From Desulfobacterium sp. (GTDB lineage: Bacteria; Desulfobacterota; Desulfobacteria; Desulfobacterales; Desulfobacteraceae), in contig JAQYWC010000063.1 of the NCBI GenBank assembly GCA_030145245.1, positions 1-36,200 of the forward strand: a stretch of 36,200 bases of DNA, in the 5' to 3' direction. Positions 1,295-36,132 of the stretch are shown piece by piece. Position numbers and translations under genes: made by a program. Below the pieces are notes generated by a model. The model searched no databases, was not told the DNA's origin, and saw nothing but the letters and a program-made list of their open reading frames with translations. Numbering within the stretch: position 1 is the first letter of the stretch; every line of letters starts with the position of its first letter.

Positions 1295-1419
1295 CCTGCC
1301 CAAAGCCAAATTCATGGCTAATTTTCCTCCTTTGACAACTACCTTTTATATTGATTTTGTATTTTTTTTTATATATAAGAAAACCTCTTTTTTTATATAA
1401 GACCCAAGGAGATAATCCC

Positions 1420-6285: not shown

Positions 6286-6290
6286 AAACC

Positions 6291-13467: not shown

Positions 13468-13490
13468 ACCATGTAAGAATTGCATAATAA

Positions 13491-13518
13491 GCCCGGGCGT
13501 GGGAAACACGCCCCGGGC
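13491..13518 (+). terminator. GC-rich hairpin between hpdC and hpdA
   Basis: The arms GCCCGGGCGTG (13491-13501) and CACGCCCCGGGC (13507-13518) pair with a single bulged base across the loop GGAAA. No T-run follows, so it is probably not a full terminator. It is more likely an mRNA processing or attenuation hairpin that lowers activase expression relative to hpdBC or protects the hpdBC 3' end. Confidence 0.6.
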
Positions 13519-13542
13519 GTTTCCGGCTTTAAGGTAAAACAG

Positions 13543-14523
13543 ATGCAAGACCCAATCTTAAAATCAAACAGGTGTGATACGGTTGGCGCTGGTGAACTCC
13601 AGGGGCTGATCTTCGACATACAGGGACATTCCGTGCATGACGGGCCAGGCACAAGGACCACCGTGTTCATGAACGGCTGTCCCCTGAATTGCATCTGGTG
13701 CTGTAACCCCGAAGGATTGTTTCGCAGCCAGGTCATCATGTACAAGGAGAGCAAATGCGTATGCTGCGGCAACTGCATAAAACGCTGCCCCCATGGTGCT
13801 GTTTCAATTACAAGTGAAGGTAAGCTCTCTTTTAACAGGCTTTTTTGTGATGTCTGCCAAACCCATGAATGCCTGGACACCTGTTACCATGGAGGGATAG
13901 AGTTAATCGGCAAAATTTATACGCCGGATCAATTGATGCGGATATTCCAGCGTGACCGTCAGTTCTGGGGGCCCGGTGGTGGCGTTACATTCAGCGGTGG
14001 TGAACCCTTGATACAGCATGCGTTTGTTCTTGAAATGCTGAAAAGATGCAAAAAAGCCTACCTGCATACCTGCGTGGAGACAACATCCTGTTTGTCCACA
14101 GACCATTACATGACCCTTATGCAATATGTGGATTGGGTGTTCACGGATCTCAAACACATGGACAGTGAAAAGCACAGGGAACTGACAGGCGTGGGCAATG
14201 CGCTTATCTTGAAAAACATTGAAACATTAGCCAGACAAGCGAATTGGGACGGATTTATCGTGCCCCGCATACCCATTATTCCTGATCTGAATGATTCGGA
14301 TGGGAATATCGGAGCCACAGCCGACTTTGTGAAATCCATCGGCCTGGAAGTGATCAATGTGCTTCCTTTCCACAGGTTTGGCGAGTCCAAATACCGCCAG
14401 ATCGGAAAATTTTATCGTTTTGCCGAACAAAAACCACCTTTAACGGAAAAGATGCAGCATATTAAAGAGGTAGTTGAAAACCGGGGCCTTGTTTGTTTTA
14501 TAGGGTCCGACACACCATTTTAG
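13543..14523 (+). CDS. hpdA: Glycyl-radical enzyme activase (radical SAM) for HpdB
   Basis: A 326-residue activating enzyme that would generate the Gly879 radical on HpdB using S-adenosylmethionine. The radical SAM motif CxxxCxxC is Cys46, Cys50 and Cys53 in NGCPLNCIWCCNPEG. A two-cluster ferredoxin insert follows (Cys72/75/78/82 and Cys102/105/110/114), as in the activases of HpdB, BssA and glycerol dehydratase. SAM-binding GGE is present in FSGGEPL. The start at 13543 (MQDPILKSN) has AAGGTAAAACAG upstream. An earlier in-frame ATG at 13480 would run through the GC-rich hairpin and gives an odd, low-complexity extension, so I reject it. It is the last gene of the hpd operon and ends just before a shared hairpin at 14531-14556. 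Confidence 0.92.
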   Translation: MQDPILKSNRCDTVGAGELQGLIFDIQGHSVHDGPGTRTTVFMNGCPLNCIWCCNPEGLFRSQVIMYKESKCVCCGNCIKRCPHGAVSITSEGKLSFNRLFCDVCQTHECLDTCYHGGIELIGKIYTPDQLMRIFQRDRQFWGPGGGVTFSGGEPLIQHAFVLEMLKRCKKAYLHTCVETTSCLSTDHYMTLMQYVDWVFTDLKHMDSEKHRELTGVGNALILKNIETLARQANWDGFIVPRIPIIPDLNDSDGNIGATADFVKSIGLEVINVLPFHRFGESKYRQIGKFYRFAEQKPPLTEKMQHIKEVVENRGLVCFIGSDTPF

Positions 14524-23107: not shown

Positions 23108-24142
23108 ATGTTTAGTTTTAAAAATGATTACAGTGAAGGTGGTCACCCCAATATCTTAAATGCACTACTGAAAAAGAACCTAACGCAAGAAGAAGGCTAC
23201 GGCCTGGATCAGCATACACAAAACGCTATTTCAAGCATCAGACGTCAGGTTGGAGCCTCGGAAGCTGATGTGCACTTGATTCCCGGAGGTACTCAAACCA
23301 ACCTCATCGCTATCAGTGCTTTTCTGCGGCCCCACGAAGCATGCATCGCAGCCACCACCGGCCACATTGCAACCCATGAAACAGGTGCCATTGAAGCAAC
23401 GGGGCATAAACTGCTTAATGTGAATACCATTGATGGTAAACTGACGCCGGAGTTGATTGAACCTGTCCTTATTGACCATCATTTTGAGCACATGGTGAAG
23501 CCCAAACTGGTTTACATTTCCAACCCCACGGAATTAGGAACCGTTTATTCAAAGGCTGAGCTGCAAAACCTGCATGATTATTGCCGGACGAAAAACCTGA
23601 TATTTTATGCGGATGGAGCCCGTTTGGGAGCCGCCCTTATGAGCAAAAATGCCGATGTAACCCTCAGGGACATGTATTCTCTTACGGATGCCTTCTATAT
23701 CGGTGGCACCAAAATCGGGGCATTGCTTGGAGAAGCACTGGTTCTTAGAAATGCCGATTTAAAAGAAGAGTACCGATATCTGATCAAACAAAGGGGGGGA
23801 CTGCTTGCAAAAGGAAGAGTATTAGGTATCCAGTTTGAAGAACTCTTCAGGGACAACCTTTATTTTGATCTTGCATTGCATGGAAATGATATGGCCCAGC
23901 ATATTGCAACCGAGTTGGAAAAAACAGGATGTACATTTTGGATCGATTCCCCCACCAATCAGATTTTTCCTGTTATGGAAAACAGTGTCATTGAGGAACT
24001 GTCGAATCAATTCCAATTTTATATCTGGGCCAAAATGGACGAAAACCGCTCGGCCGTTCGTCTGGTCACCTCTTGGGCAACGCCCCGGGAAGCCGTCGAA
24101 AGCTTTATTCAGGCATACAAAAAGATAGTTATACGCAATTAA
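23108..24142 (+). CDS. Threonine-aldolase / beta-eliminating lyase family PLP enzyme
   Basis: A 344-residue fold-type I PLP enzyme of the low-specificity threonine aldolase group. Key sites are GGTQTNLIAI (60-69, phosphate binding), HIATHETGA (86-94), YADGARLGAAL (Asp169 for the PLP nitrogen) and the lysine in FYIGGTKIGALLGEA (Lys202, Schiff base). The family cleaves L-threonine or allo-threonine to glycine and acetaldehyde; close relatives act on other beta-hydroxy amino acids. AAGGAAAAAGTTT precedes the start. A 139-bp gap separates it from the flotillin gene. Its end overlaps the end of hdrB on the other strand by 14 bp. Confidence 0.85.
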   Translation: MFSFKNDYSEGGHPNILNALLKKNLTQEEGYGLDQHTQNAISSIRRQVGASEADVHLIPGGTQTNLIAISAFLRPHEACIAATTGHIATHETGAIEATGHKLLNVNTIDGKLTPELIEPVLIDHHFEHMVKPKLVYISNPTELGTVYSKAELQNLHDYCRTKNLIFYADGARLGAALMSKNADVTLRDMYSLTDAFYIGGTKIGALLGEALVLRNADLKEEYRYLIKQRGGLLAKGRVLGIQFEELFRDNLYFDLALHGNDMAQHIATELEKTGCTFWIDSPTNQIFPVMENSVIEELSNQFQFYIWAKMDENRSAVRLVTSWATPREAVESFIQAYKKIVIRN

Positions 24143-25031
24143 CTTTCAGAGACAAAATTGATATAAGTTTTTCCTTTAAGGCCGGTGTCAGTGCAAGGTT
24201 TTTATCAAGCTTGACTTCGCTGGGGTCAAGGCCCAGTGCAAGGCCCATGAGCTGGGGCAGATATAGGACTGAAATGGCAAGGTCGGTTCCGGCATCCCTT
24301 GAGATCCCTTTCTGGAACCCCTCCAGGTTGAGCTGGCACATGGGGCAGACCGTTACAATGGCGTCGGCTCCCCTGGCATCCATGAGGATCTTTTGGACCA
24401 GCTTTTTCGCGGTTTCGGGCTTTGTGCTCATGTTGGAAGCCCCGCAGCACCGGGCTGCCATCTCCCACCCGATAACTTCAGCGCCGCAGGCCTTAATCAA
24501 ACCCTCCATGGACGTGGGGGCCTCCGGGTCGTCAAAGACGGCATAGGGCCTCAGACACTGGCATCCGTAATAGGGCGCGATCTTAAGCCCTGTGAGGGGC
24601 CGGGTGGTGTTTTCAAGGAGGGTGTCAGGGGTGATGTCGTTGACAAGGATGTCCAGGAGATGCCGCACACCGGGTGGGTTGTTGATGGCGAGATTTTCCT
24701 CCCCAAGGATGGTATCCAGGTTTTTCGCAAGTTCCGGGTCCTCCCTGCGCTCCATCTCCACCTTTTTAAGGTTCAGGTAACAGGCGCTGCAGGGCACAAG
24801 GATATCCGAAGACGGGTCCATGCGTTCGGCCAGGGCAAGGTTCCTCGCCCCCAGGGCGGAACCAAGAAGAGAGCTTACCGCCTCGACGGCTGTGGCGCCG
24901 CAGCAGTTCCAGTCGTTGATCTCGGTGAGCGTAATCCCGAGGCGCTCCATTACAGCCCTTGTGGACAAATCGTACTCCATTGCCGAACCTGACAGGGAGC
25001 AGCCAGGAAAATAGGAATAGGTATGGTTCAT
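24129..25031 (-). CDS. hdrB: HdrB, heterodisulfide reductase catalytic subunit
   Basis: A 300-residue protein with two CCG domains, each with the full ligand set for a non-cubane [4Fe-4S] cluster: Cys11, Cys43-Cys44, Cys81, Cys84, then Cys157, Cys195-Cys196, Cys229, Cys232. These agree with the pattern known from the methanogen HdrB structure, so it is probably catalytically competent. In sulfate reducers the disulfide substrate is not CoM-S-S-CoB; DsrC-type or other disulfides are proposed. Its start overlaps the hdrC stop by 4 bp (ATGA). It is the last gene of the long minus-strand redox operon, and its end overlaps the convergent aldolase gene. Confidence 0.93.
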   Translation of the reverse strand: MNHTYSYFPGCSLSGSAMEYDLSTRAVMERLGITLTEINDWNCCGATAVEAVSSLLGSALGARNLALAERMDPSSDILVPCSACYLNLKKVEMERREDPELAKNLDTILGEENLAINNPPGVRHLLDILVNDITPDTLLENTTRPLTGLKIAPYYGCQCLRPYAVFDDPEAPTSMEGLIKACGAEVIGWEMAARCCGASNMSTKPETAKKLVQKILMDARGADAIVTVCPMCQLNLEGFQKGISRDAGTDLAISVLYLPQLMGLALGLDPSEVKLDKNLALTPALKEKLISILSLKVNCV

Positions 25032-25555
25032 AATCCCTCCTCGATCTCGGCCACCTTTTTAAAGAGCCTGTCCAGGTTTCCAGTCCCGGGTTTTGCGGGC
25101 AGTTCAAAGGCCACCTTGTTTTTTCTCATCATCTGCATGCCAAGGGAAACAAAGGAAAGGGGAAGCAGCGGGTTTTTCATGGAAAGGAAGTAGAGGGCCA
25201 TGAACTCCCCTTCCCTCACCCGGCCGTGGCGGCGGACACTCTCCATGAAACTCTTGTAGAACCGGGTGCTCTTCCTGTACTTTGCAAGATCGCTCTTTGC
25301 GGCAATGGCCTTGAGCTTTGCCATGGCAGCGGTCAAAGGCAGTCCCCTGGGGCATCTGAGGGTGCAAAGATAACAGGAGGAACAGAGGGTAAAGGTCTGG
25401 CTGTCAAAAATCGCCTCGTTCCGGTCCATGAGCACCATGCGCCACAGCTTCCTCGGCACAAGATCCATGTCAACCTCATTGGGACAGGAGGCTGTGCAGG
25501 TTCCGCACTGGATACAGGGATTGAGCATTTCTTTTAACTTTATCATTTCATCCAT
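25028..25555 (-). CDS. hdrC: HdrC, heterodisulfide reductase ferredoxin-like subunit
   Basis: A 175-residue protein with two [4Fe-4S] motifs: Cys14/17/20/24 (NPCIQCGTCTASCPN) and Cys58/61/64/68 (TLCSSCYLCTLRCPRG). The helical remainder matches HdrC. It passes electrons between HdrA and HdrB. It starts 9 bp after the hdrA stop and overlaps hdrB by 4 bp. Confidence 0.93.
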   Translation of the reverse strand: MDEMIKLKEMLNPCIQCGTCTASCPNEVDMDLVPRKLWRMVLMDRNEAIFDSQTFTLCSSCYLCTLRCPRGLPLTAAMAKLKAIAAKSDLAKYRKSTRFYKSFMESVRRHGRVREGEFMALYFLSMKNPLLPLSFVSLGMQMMRKNKVAFELPAKPGTGNLDRLFKKVAEIEEGL

Positions 25556-25564
25556 GAAGTCACC

Positions 25565-28500
25565 TTAAATTGCAGCATCGATGATCTCGAGCATCTGCTG
25601 GTCCAGATAATTGTTCACAAACGCGGCGCTGTTGGTGCAGACAGCGGCACAGGAACCGCACCCCTGGCAGGCCACAGGATCGATGCGGATTTTACCGGCA
25701 TCCGGATCAAGGGTCCTTGCACCATAAACGCAGGACCCGATGCATCTTTCACACAGGATGCAGAGACTATGCTTGATTCCTGCGGTGACAAGGGAGACGC
25801 CGGCAGGCCTGCTGCTGATCAGGCGCACGGCTCCCATGGCGGCAGCCCTGGCTGAGGCCATGCTCTCCTTTGTATCCCTTGGTCCCAGGGCAAGGCCACA
25901 GGCAAACACCCCTCCGTTGACAGCGTCCACGGGTCTCCATTTGGAATCCGCCTCCTTGAAGAAGCTGTAGTCGTCCACCCCGGCATCAAACAGGGCGGCC
26001 AGGGATTGAATTGCTGAAGGAAGAATGCCCGTGGCAAGAACCACAAGATCCGACCGTATCTCCATGGTCCGGTTCAGGATGGGTTCATGCACCTTAACCA
26101 CGGGCCCGTCCGTGCCTGAAATGACTTGGGGCTTTTGCTCCAGGCTGTACCGGATGAAGATCACCCCCCTCTCCCTTGCCTCCTTGAAATAGATCTCGGA
26201 AAACCCGTAGGACATCATCTCCCGGTAGAGCACATACACGCCAAGGTCCGGGTTGATACGTTTCATTTCAAGGGCGTGCTTCAGGGAGGATTTGCAGCAG
26301 ATCCTGCTGCAGTACTCCCGGGTGTCGCACCTTGAGTCCACGCACTGGATCATCACAACCACGTTCATGTCCCCAGGATCCATTGTCCCGGCCTTAAGCG
26401 CCTGTTCCACTTCCAGGTTTGTCTTGACGGCGTCGCTTGTGCCGTAACCATAGGCGGTTGTTTCAGCCTCCCTTCCTCCGGTGGCCAGGATCACCGCTCC
26501 GTGCCCGATTCTTTTGCTGTCGTTCCCTCCAACTTTAAAAGTCGTGGTATAATTCCCGGGCCCTCCCCTTGAGTCCTCAACAACGGCGTTGGTAAAGACC
26601 CGGATGCCCGGATGGTTCTCCACCTGTTGGCAGGTATTGTCCAGGAGCCGGCCGAAATCGTATCCGGTGATATCTTTATCAAGCCAGACAAGGTTGCCGC
26701 CAAGCCGGGGTTCCTTTTCCACAATAACAGCCTCAAACCCGCTGTCTGCAACGGAAAGGGCCGCGGTCATACCTCCCAGCCCCCCTCCCACCACCAACAC
26801 CTTCGGCACCATGGTAGAGGCCATGGAGTTGAGCCTGTCTGCGTACCGAATCCTGGCAAGGCCCATCTTCACTGTGGAAGCAAGGGGTTCCCCTTTTCCT
26901 ATATCTGCGAAATCGATATAAGCGGGATCAAGATCCATGGCTTTGGAGATGGCAGCCTTTTTATCAAGAAAGAGCTGGGGGGAACAGGCAAGAACCAGAA
27001 TGCGGTTGAACGGTTTTCCGGCCAGGGCTTCAAGCATTCCGTCCCACCCTTCCCTGGTGCAGATCCGGTCCATCGCCATGATCCCGGAAACATGGACGTC
27101 GTTTGCTCCTATGGATTTGACTTGCGGTTCAATATCCGGACCATTGGGACATTGGCAGAGAACCACACCGATATCGGGTACCTGGGTTGATACATCGCGA
27201 AAACCATTCAGGGGCTCTGTCTCTTCATCAGTGATTTTTTTTGCGCCATGGATCACCTTCAGGGCCATGGCAGATGCCGAGGAGGAGTGGATCACGGATT
27301 CGCCTATATCCTTCAATCCTGAGGCTGAACCTGCAGCAAACACACCGGTATTGTCGCCCACCCCGGACAGGGGCGCCTCGAAAAACCCCAGGGGATTGAG
27401 ACCGATGCCGGTGATTTTGGCAAGATCTTTGACGCTTTTTCCCGGCCGCTGCCCCAGAGAAAGGACCACCATATCGAACGCCTCATCCTCCCGAACACCT
27501 GAATCGCCGGTGATGTAAAGCCAGAGGCCCCCTGTGTTGCGATCATGGCGAACCGAATGGGGGCGCGCCCTTTTCAGGATCACGCCATACTTGTTCTCTG
27601 CCCGCCTGCGATAGGCCTCGAACTCCTTGCTGAAACACCGCATGTCCATATAATAGATAACGGTTTCAATGGTTCCCCCGGAGCGTTTTCTCACAAGAAC
27701 CGCCTCCTTCAAGGCGATCATGCAGCAGACCGAAGAGCAGGCCGGGAACTCCAGATCCCTTGATCCCACACACTGGATCCAGGCCATGCGGCTTGGCACC
27801 CTGCCGTCCGACGGCCGTTCTAGTGATCCTTTAAAGGGGCCTGTCCCGCTTAAAATCCGCTCAAGCTCAATGTTGGAGACCACATCCTTGAGTTCCTTAT
27901 ACCCAAAGGTGTTGATCCCAGTGGTTGGATCATAATAGTCAATACCGCAGGCCAGCACCACCGCCCCCACATCCATCTCCACAAGGGTTCGGGGTATCTT
28001 TAACTCCAGCCTGCCGTCACCCGGAAGATAGATGGCGCCAAAGGGGCAGACCGTTTCGCACTCCCCGCAAAGGGTGCAGTGATCCATGTCGATGGTGTAG
28101 ATGTTGGGAATGGCGTGGGGAACGGGCAGGTGAACGGCCTTTGTTGTGGAAAGGCCCTGGTTAAAGGGATCAGGAATGGTTACGGGACACACCTCCGAAC
28201 ATCTGTTGCATCCGGTGCACAGGTTGGGATCGATGATGCAGGGCTCGGTCTCAAGGGTCACCCTGTATTTGCCTGGTTCGCCCTCAAGCCCCTTCAGGGA
28301 TGTTGAGAGCATAAGGTCGATCCCCCCATGGACAAGGCCTTTCCTGAGGCATGCCTGGAGGCAGGTGTCCCTGTCTGCCATGGGGAGCATCCGGCACATG
28401 CCGCAGCCGTCCGAGGGAAACTGATATTCCAGCTTGGAAAGCACCCCTCCCATGTGGGGGGCTGCGTCGATCAAGGTCACGTCACAGCCGGTTTCCGCAA

Positions 28501-28570
28501 GATCCAGAGCTGACCTGATCCCGCTGATGCCGGCGCCAACCACCAATGCTCTTCCCTGTTTCTCCCCCAT
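25565..28570 (-). CDS. hdrA: Double HdrA: two FAD modules in one chain
   Basis: A 1001-residue protein made of two HdrA-like units. The first has FAD-binding LVVGAGISG (9-17), two ferredoxin motifs (Cys118/121/124/128; 165/168/171/175) and an HdrA core to about 450, but no HdrA N-terminal domain. The HdrA N-terminal-like domain appears in the middle (about 465-580, DIGVVLCQCPNG to LACSPQLF). It is followed by a second FAD site (LVVGGGLGGM, about 592-601) and a C-terminal pair of [4Fe-4S] motifs (Cys937/940/943/947; 968/971/974/978). Start 28570 is chosen for the GGGAGGG upstream; an in-frame ATG at 28597 lacks a ribosome site. HdrA carries the bifurcating flavin in known Hdr complexes. It lies between the FdhB-like gene and hdrC. 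Confidence 0.9.
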   Translation of the reverse strand: MGEKQGRALVVGAGISGIRSALDLAETGCDVTLIDAAPHMGGVLSKLEYQFPSDGCGMCRMLPMADRDTCLQACLRKGLVHGGIDLMLSTSLKGLEGEPGKYRVTLETEPCIIDPNLCTGCNRCSEVCPVTIPDPFNQGLSTTKAVHLPVPHAIPNIYTIDMDHCTLCGECETVCPFGAIYLPGDGRLELKIPRTLVEMDVGAVVLACGIDYYDPTTGINTFGYKELKDVVSNIELERILSGTGPFKGSLERPSDGRVPSRMAWIQCVGSRDLEFPACSSVCCMIALKEAVLVRKRSGGTIETVIYYMDMRCFSKEFEAYRRRAENKYGVILKRARPHSVRHDRNTGGLWLYITGDSGVREDEAFDMVVLSLGQRPGKSVKDLAKITGIGLNPLGFFEAPLSGVGDNTGVFAAGSASGLKDIGESVIHSSSASAMALKVIHGAKKITDEETEPLNGFRDVSTQVPDIGVVLCQCPNGPDIEPQVKSIGANDVHVSGIMAMDRICTREGWDGMLEALAGKPFNRILVLACSPQLFLDKKAAISKAMDLDPAYIDFADIGKGEPLASTVKMGLARIRYADRLNSMASTMVPKVLVVGGGLGGMTAALSVADSGFEAVIVEKEPRLGGNLVWLDKDITGYDFGRLLDNTCQQVENHPGIRVFTNAVVEDSRGGPGNYTTTFKVGGNDSKRIGHGAVILATGGREAETTAYGYGTSDAVKTNLEVEQALKAGTMDPGDMNVVVMIQCVDSRCDTREYCSRICCKSSLKHALEMKRINPDLGVYVLYREMMSYGFSEIYFKEARERGVIFIRYSLEQKPQVISGTDGPVVKVHEPILNRTMEIRSDLVVLATGILPSAIQSLAALFDAGVDDYSFFKEADSKWRPVDAVNGGVFACGLALGPRDTKESMASARAAAMGAVRLISSRPAGVSLVTAGIKHSLCILCERCIGSCVYGARTLDPDAGKIRIDPVACQGCGSCAAVCTNSAAFVNNYLDQQMLEIIDAAI

Positions 28571-28599
28571 AAGCCCTCCCAGGCCATAAAAAGCCATTA

Positions 28600-29727
28600 C
28601 TATATACCAGTGACATCCTGGAACTCATCTTCAAAAAACACGGACAAGGGAAACGGATCGTCCATGCTCTTGCCCGGCACATAACCGAACCCCTCCTGGG
28701 CACCCTTTCCCACGGCCGTGAACAGCTCGGCCAACCTGATGTCGTTGGGGCAGGCGTTGGAGCACTGGCCGCACCCCACACAGGAGAGTCCCATGTGGAT
28801 CATCCGGGTCAGATGGAAAAACACCGTATCCATGGGCATGCGAAGGGTTCCCTTATCCTTTGCCCAGGATGCATATTGAAACGGCTCGTAATCAAAGACG
28901 TCGGTGTTGAACACACACTCCCGGCAAAAGCAGACCGGGCATGCGACCCGGCAGTTGTAACAGTTGACACAGGAGGCAAGATAGTTCCCAAGCCCCTCCA
29001 TGGTTGCCGTCTCCCGGGCAAGATCCTCAAACACCTTTTTCCCGGCCTCTTTTTTCCGTTGGATCACGGCCCTGACCGTATCCGCCCGTGTCCCGGGAAG
29101 CGGTTTGGGCTCAAATGCCAGACCTGTGATGATCTCCCTGCCCCGGTCCGTACCTGCAAACACCCCTATGGATCCGGGATCGTGGTCAAGGAGGGTGATG
29201 CAGATGTCGGCATTTTCCGGGAACGGTGCTGCGCAGATTCTGCAGGAGGTCGCAAGCCGGTCTTCGGTTTCATCGTCAAACTTTGATTCCAGGCGCTGCT
29301 CCATGAACCCACGGTTTTTTGCTTTACCTTCGGTTGCTGCCTGGTTGTATTCCCGGTTGGGCCAGGCCCCGGCACAGTCAAAAGAGATGGTGATCAGATT
29401 GTCCATGGTGGCCTGCTTGATCTTCACAAGTTCCACCAGGGCCCTCAGCTCACACGGCCGCAGCACGGCTGCCATGGTTTCGTTGGAATGTTTCTTGGTG
29501 AGCTTTGACACAAGCTTTGCCGAATTCAGTGGAAAACAGGGGGCAAAGGGATCTGCCCTTTGAAGCTCCCCGGGATCTGAAACAAGGGTCGGCATCAGCA
29601 CATGGGTGGTGGTGTGGCGGACGGGAACGAGCATTGAGCTGACGCTGCTTGTTTCAAACACGGAGGTCAAAAGCTTTTTCACACTGTCAAGCAGGTCGGT
29701 TCCACGGATCTCATAGGTCTCTTCCAT
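28600..29727 (-). CDS. FdhB/FrhB-like Fe-S flavoprotein subunit
   Basis: A 375-residue protein resembling the beta subunits of F420-reducing hydrogenase and formate dehydrogenase in its middle (AAVLRPCELRALVELVKIKQ, then ISFDCAG). The Cys-rich parts are CRIC (162-165), CVNCYNCRVACPVCFCREC (253-271) and a C-terminal ferredoxin motif Cys316/319/322/326 (CVGCGQCSNACPN). Such proteins usually bind FAD and pass electrons between a ferredoxin or F420 site and the Hdr core. No catalytic formate dehydrogenase or hydrogenase subunit accompanies it. It ends 29 bp before the preferred hdrA start (28570), and is 86 bp after mvhD. Which electron carrier it meets is unknown; ferredoxin is the simplest guess. 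Confidence 0.8.
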   Translation of the reverse strand: MEETYEIRGTDLLDSVKKLLTSVFETSSVSSMLVPVRHTTTHVLMPTLVSDPGELQRADPFAPCFPLNSAKLVSKLTKKHSNETMAAVLRPCELRALVELVKIKQATMDNLITISFDCAGAWPNREYNQAATEGKAKNRGFMEQRLESKFDDETEDRLATSCRICAAPFPENADICITLLDHDPGSIGVFAGTDRGREIITGLAFEPKPLPGTRADTVRAVIQRKKEAGKKVFEDLARETATMEGLGNYLASCVNCYNCRVACPVCFCRECVFNTDVFDYEPFQYASWAKDKGTLRMPMDTVFFHLTRMIHMGLSCVGCGQCSNACPNDIRLAELFTAVGKGAQEGFGYVPGKSMDDPFPLSVFFEDEFQDVTGI

Positions 29728-29813
29728 CGGGTTCCCCCTGGCCTGGACAAGCCAGAACCAAAATAGTTTTCTTATTCTCTTGCCAAAATAACGCGAAAAT
29801 CAAAGCCAATACG

Positions 29814-30236
29814 CTAAATTACCAGTTTCATATCGGAGACAGCAGGTCCAAGCGCCTTGATCTCAGCCACCATGGCATGGATCACCTTGGCAAATTCAAT
29901 GCCGTCGCTGGCACCGATCCAGGTGAGCCGCAACCGCTCCCTGTCGATGCCGAATCTTCCCAGTATCCCATGGAGCAGCCGGACCCTGCGCCTGGCCTTG
30001 TAGTTGCCGTTGATGTAGTGGCAATCCCCTGGGTGGCAGCCGCTCACCAGCACGGCATCGGCCCCGGACAAAAATGCCTTGACCACATATTTCGGGTCCA
30101 CCATGCCCGTGCACATCACCCGTATCAGCCTCACATTGGGAGGGTACTTCTGCCGGCTGGTTCCGGCAAGATCTGCGGCAGTATAGGTGCACCAGTTACA
30201 GACAAATGCGATGATCGTGGGTTCGAAATTATCCAT
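29814..30236 (-). CDS. mvhD: MvhD/FlpD-type [2Fe-2S] electron-transfer subunit
   Basis: A 140-residue protein of the hydrogenase delta-subunit family. Conserved cysteines lie in FVCNWCTYTAAD (13, 16), RVMCTGMVDP (42) and SGCHPGDCHY (67, 72). In known complexes MvhD connects the electron-donating module (hydrogenase, formate dehydrogenase or NADH oxidoreductase) to HdrA. The start at 30236 is set by AAGGAGGAGAGGG immediately upstream. An in-frame ATG at 30299 would begin inside the inserted repeat and is unlikely. Confidence 0.92.
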   Translation of the reverse strand: MDNFEPTIIAFVCNWCTYTAADLAGTSRQKYPPNVRLIRVMCTGMVDPKYVVKAFLSGADAVLVSGCHPGDCHYINGNYKARRRVRLLHGILGRFGIDRERLRLTWIGASDGIEFAKVIHAMVAEIKALGPAVSDMKLVI

Positions 30237-30261
30237 CCCTCTCCTCCTTGGGTTTTCTTCG

Positions 30262-30340
30262 TTTGGGGTCAGGCTTAGCTTATTTTCACTAAACCCCAAA
30301 AAATGAGTTATTAAACTAATAAGCTAAGCCTGCCCCCGGT
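30262..30340. repeat. Short inverted-repeat element (REP/MITE-like) in the hdr operon
   Basis: The arms at 30265-30284 (GGGGTCAGGCTTAGCTTATT) and 30318-30337 (its reverse complement with one mismatch) enclose 33 bp. A second pairing, TTTGGGGT (30262-30269) with ACCCCAAA (30293-30300), is possible inside. The same arm recurs at 36166-36185. Such GGGGTCAGGC palindromes resemble the short repeats moved by REP-associated (Y1) transposases. Its right arm overlaps the end of the HdrA-GltD gene and supplies the TAG stop. Confidence 0.78.
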
Positions 30341-33300
30341 CTGTGATACCCAAACGGTTGACGCTGTCCAGCACTCCGGAAAGTTCCGCAAACAGCTGTT
30401 TTTCATTGAAGTGCCTCACCTGGGCGGCGCCGCTGGGGCAAAATCCCGAACAGGAGCCGCAACCCTTGCAGAGCGCCTCATTGACCACAGATACCCCCCG
30501 GCGCTCATCAAAACCAATGGCGGTGTAGGGGCAGAGCCCGATGCAGGTTTTGCACCCTGCACAGATGTCCGGATCGATAAAAGAAACAGTGGAGGAGACC
30601 GTGACATCCCCCCGGCAGGCCAGCTGGAGTGACTTTGCCGCAGCCCCGGACGCCTGGGCCACGGTGTCCGGGATATCCCTGGGTCCCTGGCAGGCCCCGG
30701 CGATGAACACCCCGTCCGTTGCAGTGCTCAAGGGTCCAAGCTTGGGATGCTCCTCAAGGAAGAACCCGTCTGCTCCCTGGTTGATGCCCAGGATCCTTCC
30801 CACATCCCTGGCATCCTTTCTCGCCTCCATGGCCGTACAGAGCACCACCATATCCACGGGAACACGAATCCGCTCCCCCAAAAGGGTGTCTTCGGCAAGG
30901 ACCATGAGTTTGCCCTCTTCGTTCACGGATTCGGGCCTGTCCGTGATCTCCGCCACCTTGCCCCGGATAAAAACGGTACCTTCCTTCTGGCACTTGGCGT
31001 AAAACTCCTCATACCCCTTCCCAAAACAGCGCATGTCGATATAAAAATTGTATACCAGGGCGTCATGGCCCGCCTTTTCATGGACCAGGTGCCCGTATTT
31101 CAGGGCATACATGCAGCAGACCCTGGAGCAGTACTCATGATAATTCACGTCCCTGCTGCCGATACAGTGGAGGATGGCCACGCTTTTGGGCGTCCGTGTG
31201 AGGTTGCCTTCATGGTCCCGGATGAGGATCTTACCGCCAGTGGGACCCGTGGCGTTGCTCAACCGCTCGAACTCAAGGTTGGTGAACACGTTGGGATATC
31301 GCCCGTAACCGTACTGCTTCATGGGCGAAGGGTCCATGGGATCAAACCCCGTTGCCGTGATGATGCTCCCCACCTTGATCTCGACCACCTCGTCCGCCAT
31401 GGCGTGGTCCACGGCCCCCGGCTGGCAGGCATCCACGCAGAGCCTGCATTCGCAGCACCCGCCGCAGTTGATGCACCGCTCTGCCTCCTTTTGTGCCCAT
31501 TCTTCGGAAAGTCCATTGTCCACCTCGTCAAAGCAATTTTTCCGGGTATCGGAGTCAAGAAAAAGAGGTTCAGCCCGTGGCAGAATTTCGGGATTGTCCG
31601 GCAGGGGCGAAAAGTCCTTCCCTCGTTCAACAACAGGGGACGTTTCTATGGTAGCGTCCCCCAACAGGTATTGCGCCATGGCATGAACCACCCGGTGGCC
31701 CGCTGCCACGGCCTCGATCACGGTTGCGGGCCCTGTGACCGCATCCCCTGCTGAAAAGACCCCGGGAATACTCGTCTCCATGGTCTGAAGGTCGACCTTC
31801 ACCGTTCCCCGGGAGGTGAGCGCAAAGGTCTCTTCCATTCCCCTGAGATCCAGGCCCTGGCCGATGGCGGTGACAATCATATCGCAATCAACCGTGAACC
31901 CGCTGTTCTCCATTGGCACAGGCCTGCGCCTTCCGCTCTTGTCCGGGGGACCGAGCTGGTTTTTCAGGCAATCTATGGCCGTAACCCTTCCCTGGGAAAC
32001 CATCACCCGGATGGGGGTGGCAAGGGTGATAAATTCGATTCCCTCCTCCATGGCTCCCTTGATCTCCTCTTTGTCCGCCGGCATTTCTGCTTCTGATCTG
32101 CGGTAAAGGACAATCACCTTTTGGGCGCCCAGCCTCACCGCCACCCGGGCGGCATCCATGGCAACGTTTCCCCCGCCGACCACAACAACGGTTTTCCCAG
32201 TCTTATCCTTCTGTCCGCTGTTGACGGTTCTCAGGAAATCAACGGCATCAATCACGCCAATGCTGTCTTCGTTTTCAATGCCAAGCCTTACGGGCAGATG
32301 GGTGCCAAGGCCCAGAAAGACGGCATCAAACCCGTCTAATTTAAGGCTTGCTATGGAAAAATCCCGGCCCAGGACCTTGTTGGTCTCAAGCCCGATGCCG
32401 ATGCTTAATATGTGGTCGATCTCCCGATCAAGGACCAGAGGGGGCAGCCGGTAATCCGGGATGCCCCACCTCAGCATGCCGCCTGGCTTCTCCCTGGCTT
32501 CAAACAGGGTCACCTTGAATCCCTTTTGCCTGAGATAGTAGGCAACGGTCAATCCGGCGGGACCGGATCCCACCACTGCGACCCGCTGTTCTTTCTCTTC
32601 CTCCACGGCCACTGGAACCTTTGAGAGATCGCCTCTGTCCGCAGCAACCCGTTTCAGGTCCCGGATGCTGACAGCCGAGTCCACCAGGGCCCGCCGGCAC
32701 TCGTTCTCGCAGGGATGGGGACAAACCCTGCCAAGGACGCCGGGCAAGGGAAGCCTCTCCATGATGAGATTCAGGGCCTGCTGATAGTTTCCAATTTTCA
32801 CCATCTGCACATAGCCCTGGACATTGGTTCCGGCGGGACAGGCGGTTCTGCACGGTGGGATTGCCCGTTTGTCAATGGCAAAGGTGATGGGAACGGCCTG
32901 GGGAAACGACCGGTAGATCGCCTTTCGCGACAAAAGGCCCACATCCCAGGCGCTTGGCATGGATACCGGACAGACAGATGAGCACTCGGAACAGCCCGTA
33001 CACTTTTCGTTCACGTACCGGGCCTGTTTTCTGACTCTGACCGTGTAGTTGCCGATATAGCCTGAGACCTCCTCGATCCGGCTCAAAGTCATGAGCTCAA
33101 TATTGGGATTCTGGGCGGTCTCCACCATCTTGGGCGTGCCGATGCAGGCGGCACAGTCCAGGGTGGGAAAAGTCTTGTCGAACTGGAGCATGTGGCCCCC
33201 GATGGTGGTATCCTTTTCCACAAGATATGCCTTTAACCCGGCGTTGCCGATGTCGATGGCCGCCTGCATCCCTGCAATGCCGCCGCCCACAACCAGAATG

Positions 33301-33728
33301 TCGGGATTGATGGGAACCTTTCTCGATTCAAGGGCCTGGTGAAAGTTGACCCGGTTAAGGGCGGCGGCACTCAGGGTCATTGCCTTGAGGGTGGCACTGT
33401 CCCTGTCGTCCGTGACCCAGGAGACCTGCTCCCTGACCGAGGCCATCTGGAAATTGTAGGGATTCATGCCCGCCCGCAGACAGGTGCTCTGGAAGGTCTT
33501 CTCATGGAGCCTGGGCGAGCAGGAGGCAACGACCACCCGGTTAAGGCCGAACTCCTTGATATCCTTCTCGATGAGCTCCTGGCCGGGATCGGAACACATG
33601 AACTTGTAGTCCCTTGCCACCACCACGTTATTGATGGACCGGGCATAGTCGGCAACCTCGTCCACCCGCACCATTCCAGCAATGTTGATTCCGCAATGAC
33701 AGACATAGAATCCGGTTCTGATGGCCAT
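30324..33728 (-). CDS. HdrA with an inserted GltD-type NAD(P)H oxidoreductase domain
   Basis: A 1134-residue fusion. Residues 1-140 are the HdrA N-terminal domain (GFYVCHCGINIAGM, VVVASCSPRLHEKTF). An HdrA FAD site lies at 145-153 (LVVGGGIAG), with one [4Fe-4S] motif at Cys243/246/249/253. At about 290 a complete GltD-like module begins: cysteines 293, 297, 336, 340, 344, a second FAD site (VAVVGSGPAGL, 383-393) and an NAD(P) site (VVVVGGGNVAMDAAR, 514-528, then YRRSEAEMP). It ends near 695. HdrA then resumes (a Cys-rich stretch at 752-768, core to about 1045) and closes with two ferredoxin motifs (Cys1056/1059/1062/1066; 1087/1090/1093/1097). The insertion gives the complex its own NAD(P)H site. 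GGGAGGGTAAC precedes the start, 1 bp after the receiver gene. The last three codons and stop lie in a repeat element, so the tail may be altered. Confidence 0.9.
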   Translation of the reverse strand: MAIRTGFYVCHCGINIAGMVRVDEVADYARSINNVVVARDYKFMCSDPGQELIEKDIKEFGLNRVVVASCSPRLHEKTFQSTCLRAGMNPYNFQMASVREQVSWVTDDRDSATLKAMTLSAAALNRVNFHQALESRKVPINPDILVVGGGIAGMQAAIDIGNAGLKAYLVEKDTTIGGHMLQFDKTFPTLDCAACIGTPKMVETAQNPNIELMTLSRIEEVSGYIGNYTVRVRKQARYVNEKCTGCSECSSVCPVSMPSAWDVGLLSRKAIYRSFPQAVPITFAIDKRAIPPCRTACPAGTNVQGYVQMVKIGNYQQALNLIMERLPLPGVLGRVCPHPCENECRRALVDSAVSIRDLKRVAADRGDLSKVPVAVEEEKEQRVAVVGSGPAGLTVAYYLRQKGFKVTLFEAREKPGGMLRWGIPDYRLPPLVLDREIDHILSIGIGLETNKVLGRDFSIASLKLDGFDAVFLGLGTHLPVRLGIENEDSIGVIDAVDFLRTVNSGQKDKTGKTVVVVGGGNVAMDAARVAVRLGAQKVIVLYRRSEAEMPADKEEIKGAMEEGIEFITLATPIRVMVSQGRVTAIDCLKNQLGPPDKSGRRRPVPMENSGFTVDCDMIVTAIGQGLDLRGMEETFALTSRGTVKVDLQTMETSIPGVFSAGDAVTGPATVIEAVAAGHRVVHAMAQYLLGDATIETSPVVERGKDFSPLPDNPEILPRAEPLFLDSDTRKNCFDEVDNGLSEEWAQKEAERCINCGGCCECRLCVDACQPGAVDHAMADEVVEIKVGSIITATGFDPMDPSPMKQYGYGRYPNVFTNLEFERLSNATGPTGGKILIRDHEGNLTRTPKSVAILHCIGSRDVNYHEYCSRVCCMYALKYGHLVHEKAGHDALVYNFYIDMRCFGKGYEEFYAKCQKEGTVFIRGKVAEITDRPESVNEEGKLMVLAEDTLLGERIRVPVDMVVLCTAMEARKDARDVGRILGINQGADGFFLEEHPKLGPLSTATDGVFIAGACQGPRDIPDTVAQASGAAAKSLQLACRGDVTVSSTVSFIDPDICAGCKTCIGLCPYTAIGFDERRGVSVVNEALCKGCGSCSGFCPSGAAQVRHFNEKQLFAELSGVLDSVNRLGITDRGQA

Positions 33729-33729
33729 G

Positions 33730-34137
33730 TTACCCTCCCCGTTTGGTATCTGTGGAACCGGTTGGCCGGTTCAGGGTGTTGATAAGATAGAGAAGCTCGT
33801 CCTCCTGAAGGGGTTTCTCCAGAAAAGGAAGACGGGAAGGCTCTTTCAGCCCGTTGTGGGCATGGATGAGCCTGTTGCGGAAAAAAATCGATTTCAACGG
33901 AATCGGGGAGATAAAAATCACCGGCGGCGTGATATCGCAACCGCAGAATGAGAGCGCCCCCTCTTCCGGAAGCATGGCATCCACGATCATCAGATCGGGA
34001 CAGCAGGATTGCTTCTTACAGGTTCCGTCCTCCACCCCCCTGGCACAGTGGACGATAAATCCGTGGTTTGTCAAAAGAGTCCTCAGGAAAGCCCTTGTTT
34101 CCGGCTCCTGGTCGACGATAAGAATGGAACATGCCAT
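33730..34137 (-). CDS. Cys-rich receiver-domain protein
   Basis: A 135-residue stand-alone response-regulator receiver. It keeps the phospho-acceptor (Asp53 in MIVDAMLP), the switch Ser77 (IFISP) and Lys108 (FLEKPL). The acidic pair at the start is VDQE, so one Asp is replaced by Gln10, which may weaken magnesium binding. It has seven cysteines (3, 31, 40, 45, 46, 65, 67), unusual for a receiver. It is the first gene after the predicted sigma-54 promoter and ends 1 bp before the HdrA-GltD start. No histidine kinase is in the window. It may modulate the complex or the activator, perhaps by redox; this is inference. Confidence 0.75.
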   Translation of the reverse strand: MACSILIVDQEPETRAFLRTLLTNHGFIVHCARGVEDGTCKKQSCCPDLMIVDAMLPEEGALSFCGCDITPPVIFISPIPLKSIFFRNRLIHAHNGLKEPSRLPFLEKPLQEDELLYLINTLNRPTGSTDTKRGG

Positions 34138-34422
34138 GGCTCCGTCTCCCTGTGGATAAAGGTTTTTCGTGGCCGGCTTTGTTCTCTATATGACAATCAG
34201 AGCACTATCCATGCCAAGGCCTGGGAATAGGAGACGATTATCGCCAAGCACCCTGGTTTCCGGTGCTATGGCAAGGGGGGAGGATCTACAGGAGGGGCCG
34301 GACAAATGAACCGCAATCATAAACTACTGAAACATCCATGCAACATATCAGGAAGAGAAAGCTTAAGACAGGTTTGTTTTAGGATCGTAAATGTTGCGCA
34401 ACATCCATGCAACCATGTTGCA
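34138..34422. other. Control region of the hdr operon
   Basis: The 285 bp between the activator gene and the receiver gene hold no gene. They contain a good minus-strand sigma-54 promoter (34201-34216) and, further upstream in the direction of transcription, a cluster of repeats (34331-34423). This is what a sigma-54 operon driven by the adjacent activator should look like. Confidence 0.7.
34201..34216 (-). promoter_or_regulatory. Sigma-54 (-24/-12) promoter of the hdr operon
   Basis: On the minus strand it reads TGGCATGGATAGTGCT against the consensus TGGCACG-N4-TTGCW. Both the GG at -24 and the GC at -12 are present at the right spacing. Initiation would be near 34190, about 50 bases before the receiver gene start at 34137. 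Confidence 0.75.
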
Positions 34423-34423
34423 T
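34331..34423. promoter_or_regulatory. Cluster of palindromes and direct repeats, likely enhancer sites
   Basis: Two perfect palindromes occur: ATGTTGCGCAACAT at 34391-34404 and ATGCAACCATGTTGCAT at 34407-34423. The 14-mer AACATCCATGCAAC is present twice, at 34331-34344 and 34400-34413. They lie about 115-220 bp upstream of the sigma-54 promoter, next to the 3' end of the activator gene, which is the expected place for its binding sites. Confidence 0.72.
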
Positions 34424-36132
34424 CACTCTGCAATCCCGTATTTTCGCATCTTTCGCCACAGGGTTGTCCTGTCCATATTGAGCATTATCGCTGTTTTTTT
34501 CCTGTGCCAGGAATTGCTGACAAGGACTTCGAGGATGCGTTGCCGCTCAAGCGCGGTTTCCGGATTTTCCATCTCCCCGGCCTGGGATTCACTTTGGGAT
34601 GAGGAGCGGTCAAGGAGGTAGGCAGGCAGGTGGCAGGGGCTGATCACATCCTCCTGGCAGAGGATGATGGCGTGTTCGATGATGTTCTCAAGCTCCCGGA
34701 TATTCCCCGGATACCGGTAGTTCAGCAGAATCTTCATGGAGGCTTCGGAAATATCAGGGAACGGCTTCTTGATGATGCCGGCCTGTTTTCTCATGAGGTG
34801 GCGGATCAAAAGGGGAAGGTCTCCCCTGCGCCGGCAAAGCGGGGGAAGCTCAATCCTGAGCACGTTGAGCCGGTAAAAAAGGTCTTCCCGGAACAGCTTT
34901 TTTTCAACCAGGGCTTCAAGTTTTCTGTTGGTGGCGGAGATGATTCTTACGTCCACCTTTTTCGTCTTCCTGCTGCCCAGGGGATAAAACTCCCGGTCCT
35001 CCAGCACCCGGAGGAGCTTTGCCTGGAGGGACAGGGGAAGATCCCCGATCTCATCAAGAAAGATGGTGCCGGTGTGGGCCTCGCTGAACCGGCCCGGTTT
35101 GTCCCTGTCCGCCCCGGTAAATGCCCCCCGTATGTATCCGAAAATTTCAGACTCAAGCAGGTTGTCCGGAATGGCCGCACAGTTCACCTTGACAAAGGGT
35201 TTCTTGCTCCGGTTGCTCTCGGAATGGATGATCTTGGCCAGAAGATCCTTGCCCGTGCCCGTGGAACCTTCGATGAGCAGGGTGGATTCGGTCTTGGCCA
35301 CCACCCTGACCATGTCGAATATCTTCTGCATCAGGGGATCCTTGCCGATCATGTGGTGAAACCGGTACTTTCCGGTGATGGCCCGGTCCAGCTGGTGGGC
35401 CAGGGTCATGTCCTGGAAGGCGGCAAGGGCGCCGATGATCCTGCCGTGATCGTTCAAAAGCGGGATATAATCTCCGCTCACCGGGATGCTTTCCCCCTGG
35501 TAACTGAGCAGATCCCCCCGTATGGCTGTGGCCGGCACCTTGTTACTCAACACCTGCCTGAGCACCCCGCAGGTTTTCTTTACCTGCCCTGCAAAGAGGG
35601 TGGCGCAATCCTTTCCAAGAAGCTTCATCCGGCTGAACCCGGATATCTTTTCCGCCGCCCGGTTAAAAAAGGTGATCAGCCCGTTTCTGTTGACGGTGAA
35701 GATGCCCATGTTCAGGCTGTCCAGAATGATCTTGAGGCTCTGCTCCTCATAGTGGATCCGGCTGACAAGCTCGCTGTAGGGAGAGTGGTCCTGGAGCACG
35801 GTGACGCACCCCTGCACCCTGCCCCGGCCGTCGAGAAGCGGGGCACCCACCCGGGTCACCCGGTGTTTTTCGTCCATTTCGTCCAGGAATTCAATGTCCA
35901 TGTCCCTGACATCAAGGGTTTCCGGATCATGGAACGGACAGGTGGAAAAACAGGGAATTCCGCAGAAGATCTCCTGGCAGTCGCCGTCAAGGATCTCCTG
36001 GTCTTCAAGGCCGATGAGAATCCCTGCGCTTTTGTTGAATTGCCGTATTTTCCGGTCAGCGTCGATGAGAAGGACACCGATGTTGAAATGATCCAGAATC
36101 TTGAGCCATTGATCGTAGAGAATGAGATCCAT
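34423..36132 (-). CDS. Sigma-54 activator with two PAS domains, likely regulator of the hdr operon
   Basis: A 569-residue enhancer-binding protein. PAS1 (about 10-115) contains a Cys cluster C52-x4-C57-x3-C61-x3-C65 (CQEIFCGIPCFSTC) that could bind a metal cluster or sense redox. PAS2 lies at about 130-245. The AAA+ domain has Walker A GSTGTGKD (289-296), the canonical GAFTGA loop (336-341) and Walker B FLDEIGD (358-364). The Fis-type helix-turn-helix is at about 530-566. The start has CAGGAG upstream. It precedes the receiver and hdr genes on the same strand with a 285-bp control region between, so it probably activates them. A repeat arm lies 33 bp before its start. Confidence 0.92.
   Translation of the reverse strand: MDLILYDQWLKILDHFNIGVLLIDADRKIRQFNKSAGILIGLEDQEILDGDCQEIFCGIPCFSTCPFHDPETLDVRDMDIEFLDEMDEKHRVTRVGAPLLDGRGRVQGCVTVLQDHSPYSELVSRIHYEEQSLKIILDSLNMGIFTVNRNGLITFFNRAAEKISGFSRMKLLGKDCATLFAGQVKKTCGVLRQVLSNKVPATAIRGDLLSYQGESIPVSGDYIPLLNDHGRIIGALAAFQDMTLAHQLDRAITGKYRFHHMIGKDPLMQKIFDMVRVVAKTESTLLIEGSTGTGKDLLAKIIHSESNRSKKPFVKVNCAAIPDNLLESEIFGYIRGAFTGADRDKPGRFSEAHTGTIFLDEIGDLPLSLQAKLLRVLEDREFYPLGSRKTKKVDVRIISATNRKLEALVEKKLFREDLFYRLNVLRIELPPLCRRRGDLPLLIRHLMRKQAGIIKKPFPDISEASMKILLNYRYPGNIRELENIIEHAIILCQEDVISPCHLPAYLLDRSSSQSESQAGEMENPETALERQRILEVLVSNSWHRKKTAIMLNMDRTTLWRKMRKYGIAE

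Follow-up and report, generated by a model that had tools for sequence, protein, structure and literature searches.

The window analyzed here is a stretch of 36,200 nucleotides from Desulfobacterium sp. (contig JAQYWC010000063.1), in which the gene hdrL (hdrA-gltD; 30324..33728, minus strand) encodes a protein of 1134 residues. Model matches, phmmer matches and an AlphaFold model identified HdrL as an HdrA with a complete GltD module set into its inserted ferredoxin domain. With mvhD directly downstream, it is of the HdrL or type III HdrA kind. The best explanation of this design, to which we give a probability of about 50%, is that the ferredoxin outlet of HdrA would be wired to NADP(H) in a reversible, flavin-based bifurcation or confurcation, because the insert (at 291/293 of the solved HdrA chain 5odc_A) sits inside the domain that reduces ferredoxin. 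An earlier sequence-only reading had proposed an NAD(P)H-linked, bifurcating or confurcating Hdr complex, and the motifs together with the residue pair E821/K877 support a complex that is probably of this type.

The two ends of HdrL aligned by phmmer to 5odc_A at 5-291 (HdrL 4-288) and 293-650 (HdrL 758-1120), which leaves an insert of about 469 residues at a point where the flanking HdrA positions nearly adjoin. The HdrA N part (32871..33728, minus strand; residues 1-286), placed by this alignment, contains the N-terminal FeS domain (C10, C12, C45, C70), the FAD Rossmann motif at 146-157, C195, which aligns with Cys197 of solved HdrA, and the cluster motif C243-C253, the first of two in the inserted ferredoxin domain. 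The GltD/NfnB/StnC-type module follows (31464..32870, minus strand; residues 287-755), with C293, C297, C336, C340, C344 and K359 (equivalent to StnC K170), an FAD motif at 385-394, an NAD(P) motif at 516-536 and YRR at 542-544. In the HdrA C part (30327..31463, minus strand; residues 756-1134), also aligned to 5odc_A, are C758, C761, C764 and C768, E821 and K877 (E356/K409 of solved HdrA) and the C-terminal dicluster ferredoxin. The sequence-only reading had described a complete GltD-like module within HdrA, with FAD and NAD(P) sites in these places, and both descriptions held. It had also put the insertion where the second HdrA ferredoxin motif should be; the position was correct, but that motif is not replaced and follows the insert as the four cysteines from C758 to C768.

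Family models agreed with this order. The GltD-like NCBIfam model PRK12771 matched residues 286-789 with 543.6 bits, above its cut-off of 516, while the HdrA2 model (best stretch 4-298, 769 of 1100 bits) and the HdrA model (749-1129, 590.6 of 1400 bits) each stayed below their own cut-offs. Residues 290-762 matched the GltD-type chains of NfnABC (9bov_A) and StnC (8oh5_C). Structure prediction, a check that had been proposed earlier, gave a model with pLDDT 88.2 and pTM 0.78, and its comparison with 5odc_A (1125 aligned columns, TM 0.89 by target length) predicts that the HdrA fold is kept around the insert. One scan of genome contigs provided 79 loci, the best of 463 relatives. The same domain order was found in 74 related loci, with the three parts in the order HdrA-GltD-HdrA within 1.6 kb; three (L020, L051, L116) reach a contig end and a few copies are identical pairs. 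A frameshift or assembly fusion as the origin of HdrL was ruled out, since all 74 related copies read through without a stop.

Residue conservation was counted in 73 of 75 window-type copies (the 74 extracted plus the window's own, L051 and L116 left out, with a few identical pairs among them). The cluster cysteines were kept in 73/73, except C755 (72/73) and C759 (57/73). C195 was kept in every copy, as was the pair E821/K877, the residues expected of a bifurcating HdrA. Lys359, at the place of StnC K170, and Arg427, the equivalent of NfnB R201 and StnC R239, were likewise present in 73/73; the StnC equivalences were counted on the HdrL-StnC alignment. The FAD and NAD(P) sites were not lost in close homologues: Ala523 of GxGxxA was found in 72/73 (one unread), Gly520 in 69/73, and Arg543 and Arg544 of YRR in 69/73 each. 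In the wider set, YRR occurred in 74 of 79 short modules (three with CLE or SLE, one unread, one deleted) and in 13 of 14 long modules, the other having LE. Paired arginines at this position bind the 2'-phosphate, and an acidic residue favors NAD. By this rule, the YRR motif, which NADPH-binding StnC has as well, argues for a preference of the HdrL GltD module for NADP(H).

All genes of the hdrL row lie on the minus strand and are tightly spaced, in the order PAS/sigma-54 activator, receiver-like gene, hdrL, mvhD, fdhB-like gene, tandem hdrA, hdrC and hdrB. A model scan confirmed the hdrA, hdrB, hdrC, mvhD and FdhB-like neighbors that had been described. The mvhD gene (29814..30299; model match) encodes a [2Fe-2S] adaptor of the FlpD family and probably starts at 30236, giving 140 residues as in many relatives. 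The fdhB-like gene (28600..29727) has an FrhB/FdhB domain and 4Fe-4S motifs, and the best solved relatives of its product are methanogen FdhB proteins (best two about 1e-30). Two CCG domains are found in HdrB (24129..25031), whose gene overlaps hdrC (25028..25555) by four bases; both genes were placed by model match.

The tandem hdrA (25565..28597; model match and residue alignment) encodes HdrA2x, 1010 residues, a "type II" protein in the wording of PMC12054007. Its first half has no N-terminal FeS domain, but the Cys197 equivalent is present, as are the two motifs of the inserted ferredoxin domain and the pair E246/K297, which was kept in 35/35 rows (34 uninterrupted reading frames and the window's). 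The second half has the N-terminal-domain cysteines and no Cys197 equivalent. Such complementary halves have been described for fused or heterodimeric HdrA (PMC9012536).

No gene resembling the host genome's own FdhA was found in the whole window, and no hydrogenase subunit among the eight scanned genes of 24129-36132, in agreement with the earlier claim that both were missing. The model scan also found no NfnA-like partner gene in the hdrL cluster. The further claim that the complex is self-contained fared less well: it has no hydrogenase or FdhA gene of its own, but many relatives add a membrane HdrF of the QmoC-HdrD type and others the [NiFe] subunits MvhAG. Of the fused-copy loci, 28 have 6.5 kb or more of downstream sequence, and MvhD-FdhB-tandem HdrA is present in 24 of these. 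All 24 have at least one of two further elements, HdrF or a QmoC-like part upstream (18 loci) or HdrC-HdrB downstream (16 loci). In L018, L037 and others, a QmoC plus HdrC/HdrB fusion of about 770 residues (HdrF-like; composition shown for L018) lies immediately upstream of hdrL in many Desulfobacterota, which suggests a link to the quinone pool.

Other relatives have other partners. HdrL-MvhD-MvhG-MvhA was found in 10 loci named as other phyla, eight of which sit behind HdrC-HdrB; the MvhG/MvhA families were checked for L054, and a hydrogenase match was also seen for L060. These 10 loci are the methanogen Hdr-Mvh set with HdrL in place of HdrA. Since some relatives thus add a [NiFe] hydrogenase to HdrL, the NAD(P)H module does not just stand in for a hydrogenase. 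In Desulfovibrio-like loci (Desulfovibrio, Pseudodesulfovibrio, Solidesulfovibrio, Desulfomicrobium and other deltaproteobacteria), MvhD-FdhB-tandem HdrA-HdrC-HdrB was kept in 10/10, with an HdrA that has no GltD and keeps the ferredoxin-motif cysteines examined. Fused proteins are frequent: an HdrA-GltD match at E <= 1e-230 was obtained in 103 of the 395 genomes sampled from the phylum, with the window type in 19 (one cut by a contig end), a longer type, defined by a match starting at residue 108-155, in 93, and both in nine. In the copies examined, the long HdrL is built as a tandem HdrA whose first half carries the GltD module. The host genome has one (C75) beside MvhD, MetV- and MetF-like genes. 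In four long HdrL genes (L093, L094, L128, L129), an in-frame TGA stands in half 1 exactly at the Cys197-equivalent position, so that the trans-ligand of the N-terminal cluster may be a selenocysteine instead.

In the proposed mechanism, NADP(H) would bind the GltD module and exchange a hydride with its FAD. Single electrons would pass from this FAD through the GltD 4Fe-4S clusters to the cluster pair of the inserted ferredoxin domain; this pair would form the low-potential branch of the HdrA FAD at E821/K877. On the mid-potential side, MvhD and the FdhB-like subunit would make the connection, probably with the tandem HdrA and HdrC/HdrB, and in many relatives this side would reach HdrF and the quinone pool. 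The window's tandem HdrA, with its uninterrupted inserted ferredoxin domain, could still serve ferredoxin. The complex would then couple three partners: NADP(H), ferredoxin and, as the third, a DsrC-type disulfide or menaquinone. The GltD FAD would be a non-bifurcating NADP(H) wire of the StnC type, as Lys359 suggests; the corresponding FAD site of StnC binds NADPH and has been reported to be such a wire (PMC10482914). Up to four flavins plus an FdhB-like subunit had been counted in the sequence-only reading, and four FAD sites are supported, but the GltD flavin looks like an electron wire and not like a bifurcating site.

The Desulfovibrio-like loci without GltD, the MvhAG loci and the loci with NADH-dehydrogenase-like pieces (L078 and L062, below) are natural comparisons that support an NADP(H)-wired ferredoxin outlet. 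The GltD-bearing HdrA complex of Moorella has been reported to reach 190 U/mg in NADH:benzyl viologen assays, compared to 0.5 for the GltD-free Sporomusa HdrA, in different preparations (PMC9430772). Several points weigh against this explanation. Moorella, the sole relative with a reported activity, uses NADH (PMC9430772), and LE replaces RR in 3/79 short and 1/14 long GltD modules; for both reasons, the choice of cofactor varies. Lys at position 359 is also found in 7/12 stand-alone GltD copies and is therefore not special to HdrL. In the tandem HdrA, C130, a ligand of the first ferredoxin motif, is Cys in only 21/35, and half 2 keeps its Lys in 22/35 and its Glu in 21/35, which makes ferredoxin service and a second bifurcating site in this protein less sure. 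Conserved bifurcation residues are no proof of bifurcation, and FdhA proteins encoded elsewhere in the genome could join FdhB in trans.

A different arrangement, doubtful in our view and still the most serious competitor, would make NAD(P)H the mid-potential donor, with the HdrL flavin bifurcating these electrons to the HdrB disulfide and to ferredoxin (the latter via the tandem HdrA), in the manner proposed for FlxABCD-HdrABC. The archaeal type III proposal, in which NADH is donor or acceptor (PMC12054007), points the same way, as do the ferredoxin motifs kept in the window's tandem HdrA and the failure to find an FdhA gene in 23 of the 24 FdhB-type loci. However, GltD does not sit at the MvhD entry, which MvhAG already serves in 10 loci, but on the branch through which solved HdrA delivers low-potential electrons. 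It is considerably less probable that FdhB recruits FdhA in trans, so that formate would be the real donor and GltD a secondary outlet. A dedicated formate dehydrogenase would have to come from outside the window, where the host genome has four FdhA genes over the cut-off; the FdhB-like protein is closest to methanogen FdhB, and in Desulfobacterium autotrophicum loci V and VI fdhB is followed by fdhA (PMC2702500). Against this, tblastn with the host genome's four FdhA proteins found none in 23 of the 24 FdhB-type loci, the sole exception being a 25% match about 8 kb upstream in L019, and at least one of the four (C30) has separate FdhB-like and HdrA neighbors of its own. F420 was rejected as a partner of FdhB in the host genome: no CofD match was found in this genome (99.6% complete), compared to matches in 6 of 14 control genomes, three of them over the cut-off, which makes F420 an unlikely partner.

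Bifurcation at the GltD flavin itself, as in Nfn, would place two bifurcating flavins in one chain and is very improbable. It draws on Arg427, but StnC keeps the same Arg and is reported to be non-bifurcating at that FAD (PMC10482914). An Nfn-type site would be expected to have Glu as a ligand of the FAD-proximal cluster, together with an NfnA partner; HdrL copies have the StnC-type Lys359 where NfnB has Glu, and no NfnA-like gene was found in the cluster. We rejected GltD as a second bifurcating site because of this Lys. The host genome's NfnAB-like pair (L009) has Glu at the Lys359 position.

The GltD module has been exchanged between HdrL copies, as seen from conflicting trees of the two parts. 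In the HdrA-part tree, the window groups with 16 other copies, and in the GltD-part tree it falls in a different group. AU tests on 71 shared copies (L062 left out), with groups chosen after viewing the trees, rejected the GltD grouping on the HdrA data (p-AU 2.9e-8) and the HdrA grouping on the GltD data (1.5e-62). Used as controls, the N part and the C part by themselves both recovered the HdrA grouping (support 94.8 and 82.5, both under our starred level) and rejected the GltD grouping (4.3e-11 and 4.5e-8). Informative sites placed the switches in the window at residues 294 and 817, near the module ends; 33 of 50 sites inside are like the GltD group and 87 of 101 outside are like the HdrA group. 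The left borders are also near the module end in L050 (296-697) and L014 (283-671). The borders of L018/L020 are broad (205-1005), and thus sharp borders are not supported by every copy. Short and long HdrL are intermixed and not cleanly grouped in the GltD tree, where long branches meet, so it leaves the direction of exchange unsettled.

The module has also been gained or lost. The main tree kept 188 of 224 units; repeat fetches of host-genome loci, L051 and L116 (cut by a contig end), L103 (by choice) and units with no N part or under the fill threshold were left out, and L013 stood for the window's tandem HdrA, which was not a row. On a tree of 72 fused and 41 GltD-free HdrAs (10 from the 79-locus scan, 30 further returned loci and one host-genome copy), the label changes at least seven times, five of them forced by starred branches, a count that depends on sampling. 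Thirteen Desulfovibrio-like GltD-free HdrAs join six fused copies (98, starred) within a clade of 56 fused and 13 GltD-free copies (100, starred). Since they nest inside a fused clade, loss of GltD is the simplest reading, and repeated gain would be a less simple alternative. In the main tree, the first halves of the long type group with tandem-HdrA first halves (96, starred). The long type thus seems to have received GltD in an insertion of its own, although short and long modules are mixed in the GltD tree.

GltD is not the only module found in this domain. At L078:3141-9489, three consecutive reading frames encode HdrA(1-264) plus a NuoE-like part, NuoF plus GltD, and a NuoG-like 2Fe-2S/4Fe-4S part plus HdrA(761-1120), and MvhD-FdhB-tandem HdrA-HdrC-HdrB follows this split HdrA. 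At L062:4342-11047 the series is an HdrA-N frame (no NuoE), a NuoF-GltD frame and a NuoG-like plus HdrA-C frame, and at L058:511-2289 only the last part (NuoG-like plus HdrA-C) was seen; both loci also have an ordinary HdrL. Two or three genomes thus carry NuoE/NuoF-GltD/NuoG-like pieces at the GltD site.

The first half of the tandem HdrA has, in 25 loci (L037:15043-18453, L018:7798-11268, L050:15264-18917 and 22 others), about 150 extra residues right after the second inserted-ferredoxin cluster motif. Two of these inserts were scanned and are receiver domains (PF00072, 8.8e-30 and 3.8e-31). Isolates with such proteins include Desulfospira joergensenii and Desulfamplus magnetovallimortis, and in the Desulfospira model (whole-model mean pLDDT 81.5) beta strands and alpha helices alternate over residues 191-309. 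The acid residues, phospho-Asp, Thr and Lys are intact in all 15 loci outside the Desulfovibrio-like set; the 10 Desulfovibrio-like receivers are degenerate, with the phospho-Asp in three and the Thr in one. The window's tandem HdrA has no receiver domain. Loss is likely here, since L013, a near relative of this protein, is paired in the tree with L050, which bears the receiver (99, starred; support for the receiver-bearing group is 83).

Ten large unlabeled genes in nine loci were scanned, and a histidine-kinase-type (HATPase_c) gene lay beside the Hdr cluster in eight of the nine, L046 having none among the neighbors scanned. These genes have HAMP/PAS/HATPase_c or receiver plus HATPase_c domains. 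They were seen in all six scanned receiver-bearing loci (L031:19566-21839, L034:17434-20935, L037:18474-19622, L038:13088-14599, L040:18608-20896 and L042:20033-22348) and in two with no receiver in the tandem HdrA (L027:20885-23164 and L070:15756-18053). A neighboring kinase could supply phosphate to the receiver domain within HdrA. Taken together, these inserts lead us to propose, tentatively, that HdrA uses its inserted ferredoxin domain as a general plug-in port, which can take a GltD cassette, a NuoE/NuoF-GltD/NuoG-like set or a receiver domain with kinases nearby. If so, evolution would switch the low-potential branch of such a flavin away from ferredoxin and toward NADP(H) or NADH, and bring the same branch under phospho-signal control, leaving the remaining complex untouched.

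Upstream of hdrL are a stand-alone receiver-like gene (33730..34137, minus strand; PF00072, 29.4 bits, slightly below the cut-off of 30.2) and a PAS plus sigma-54 activator gene (34423..36132, minus strand; model match), a possible regulator. A similar activator was found within 7 kb upstream in 17 of the 56 fused loci listed, many of which have short flanks. We make no claim for a sigma-54 promoter-like site before the receiver gene (34201-34216, minus strand), since 23 of 100 shuffles reach the 24 pattern matches found. The host genome has dsrA and two DsrC and is probably that of a sulfate-reducing bacterium. It also contains a GltD-bearing HdrA-like reading frame (C82:1548-3479, L095) adjoining 2-oxoacid oxidoreductase genes. 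Elsewhere in the window of this dsrA-bearing host are a glycyl radical enzyme (10485-13199, plus strand), above the cut-off of the model for 4-hydroxyphenylacetate decarboxylase, which forms p-cresol, and near it an activase-like gene (13480-14523, plus strand), slightly below its model cut-off. A bacterial alpha-2-macroglobulin and a penicillin-binding protein (transglycosylase/transpeptidase) adjoin each other at 1351-8624 (plus strand).

HdrL is a known kind of protein, and its gene set was apparently already pictured in 2009. The sequence-only reading had suggested that the set could be under-described; as a kind it is not: HdrL with mvhD, fdhB, hdrA4, hdrB and hdrC was reported from Desulfobacterium autotrophicum HRM2 (HdrL1-3; PMC2702500), where locus VIII has hdrL/hdrA4 in tandem with fdhB, hdrB and hdrC like the window, an identity that rests on the legend of Fig. 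4 and not on sequence. HdrL1 and HdrL3 of that organism were described as selenoproteins, in contrast to the window's HdrL, which has no in-frame stop. The statement there that HdrL seems unique to D. autotrophicum is outdated, given the many relatives in the contig scan. The name HdrL has since been reused (PMC12142623). The HdrA of the Moorella thermoacetica HdrCBA-MvhD-MetVF complex has a TrxR-like domain interrupted by GltD, as in the window, and oxidation of NADH was reported (PMC9430772); ferredoxin was reported not to be used (PMC13391211). Compared by description only, this tandem-type protein of 1487 residues resembles the long HdrL (C75), which has similar neighbors, and not the 1134-residue FdhB type. 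In archaea, an NfnB/GltD domain interrupts the inserted ferredoxin domain of ANME-1 HdrA9-11 (PMC9012536, 2022) and of type III HdrA (PMC12054007, 2025), for which separate insertions were noted; the gene sets of both differ from the window's. Nine archaeal type III sequences have GXGXXG, read as NAD-preferring (PMC12054007), in contrast to GXGXXA plus YRR in the window and most bacterial copies.

In the excerpts consulted, exchange of the GltD module was not mentioned, although the HdrA-module review of Appel et al. 2021 may cover some of it. GltD-free nesting, Nuo-like pieces and a receiver in the tandem HdrA were not met there either, and no title or opening of an abstract among the papers listed described a receiver domain inside HdrA. 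What is new is the modular history of the ferredoxin port. HdrA-GltD proteins are frequent, yet the only activity met in these sources is that of the Moorella relative. Similar gene sets exist with GltD (YRR or LE), without GltD and with an NADH-dehydrogenase-like set, a natural experiment on the choice of low-potential partner by a bifurcating flavin, and the replacement of ferredoxin in HdrA complexes of sulfate reducers becomes a directly testable question.

The module itself is shared with StnC (8oh5_C) and NfnABC (9bov_A), at 38 and 44% identity, with Lys at the StnC cluster-ligand position. In those proteins GltD is fused to NuoG-type parts, whereas in the window it lies within HdrA. In FlxABCD-HdrABC, separate Flx subunits bring NADH, and GltD is not known to lie inside HdrA. 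That system is likewise an NADH-linked Hdr complex of sulfate reducers that has no hydrogenase (PMC10553843).

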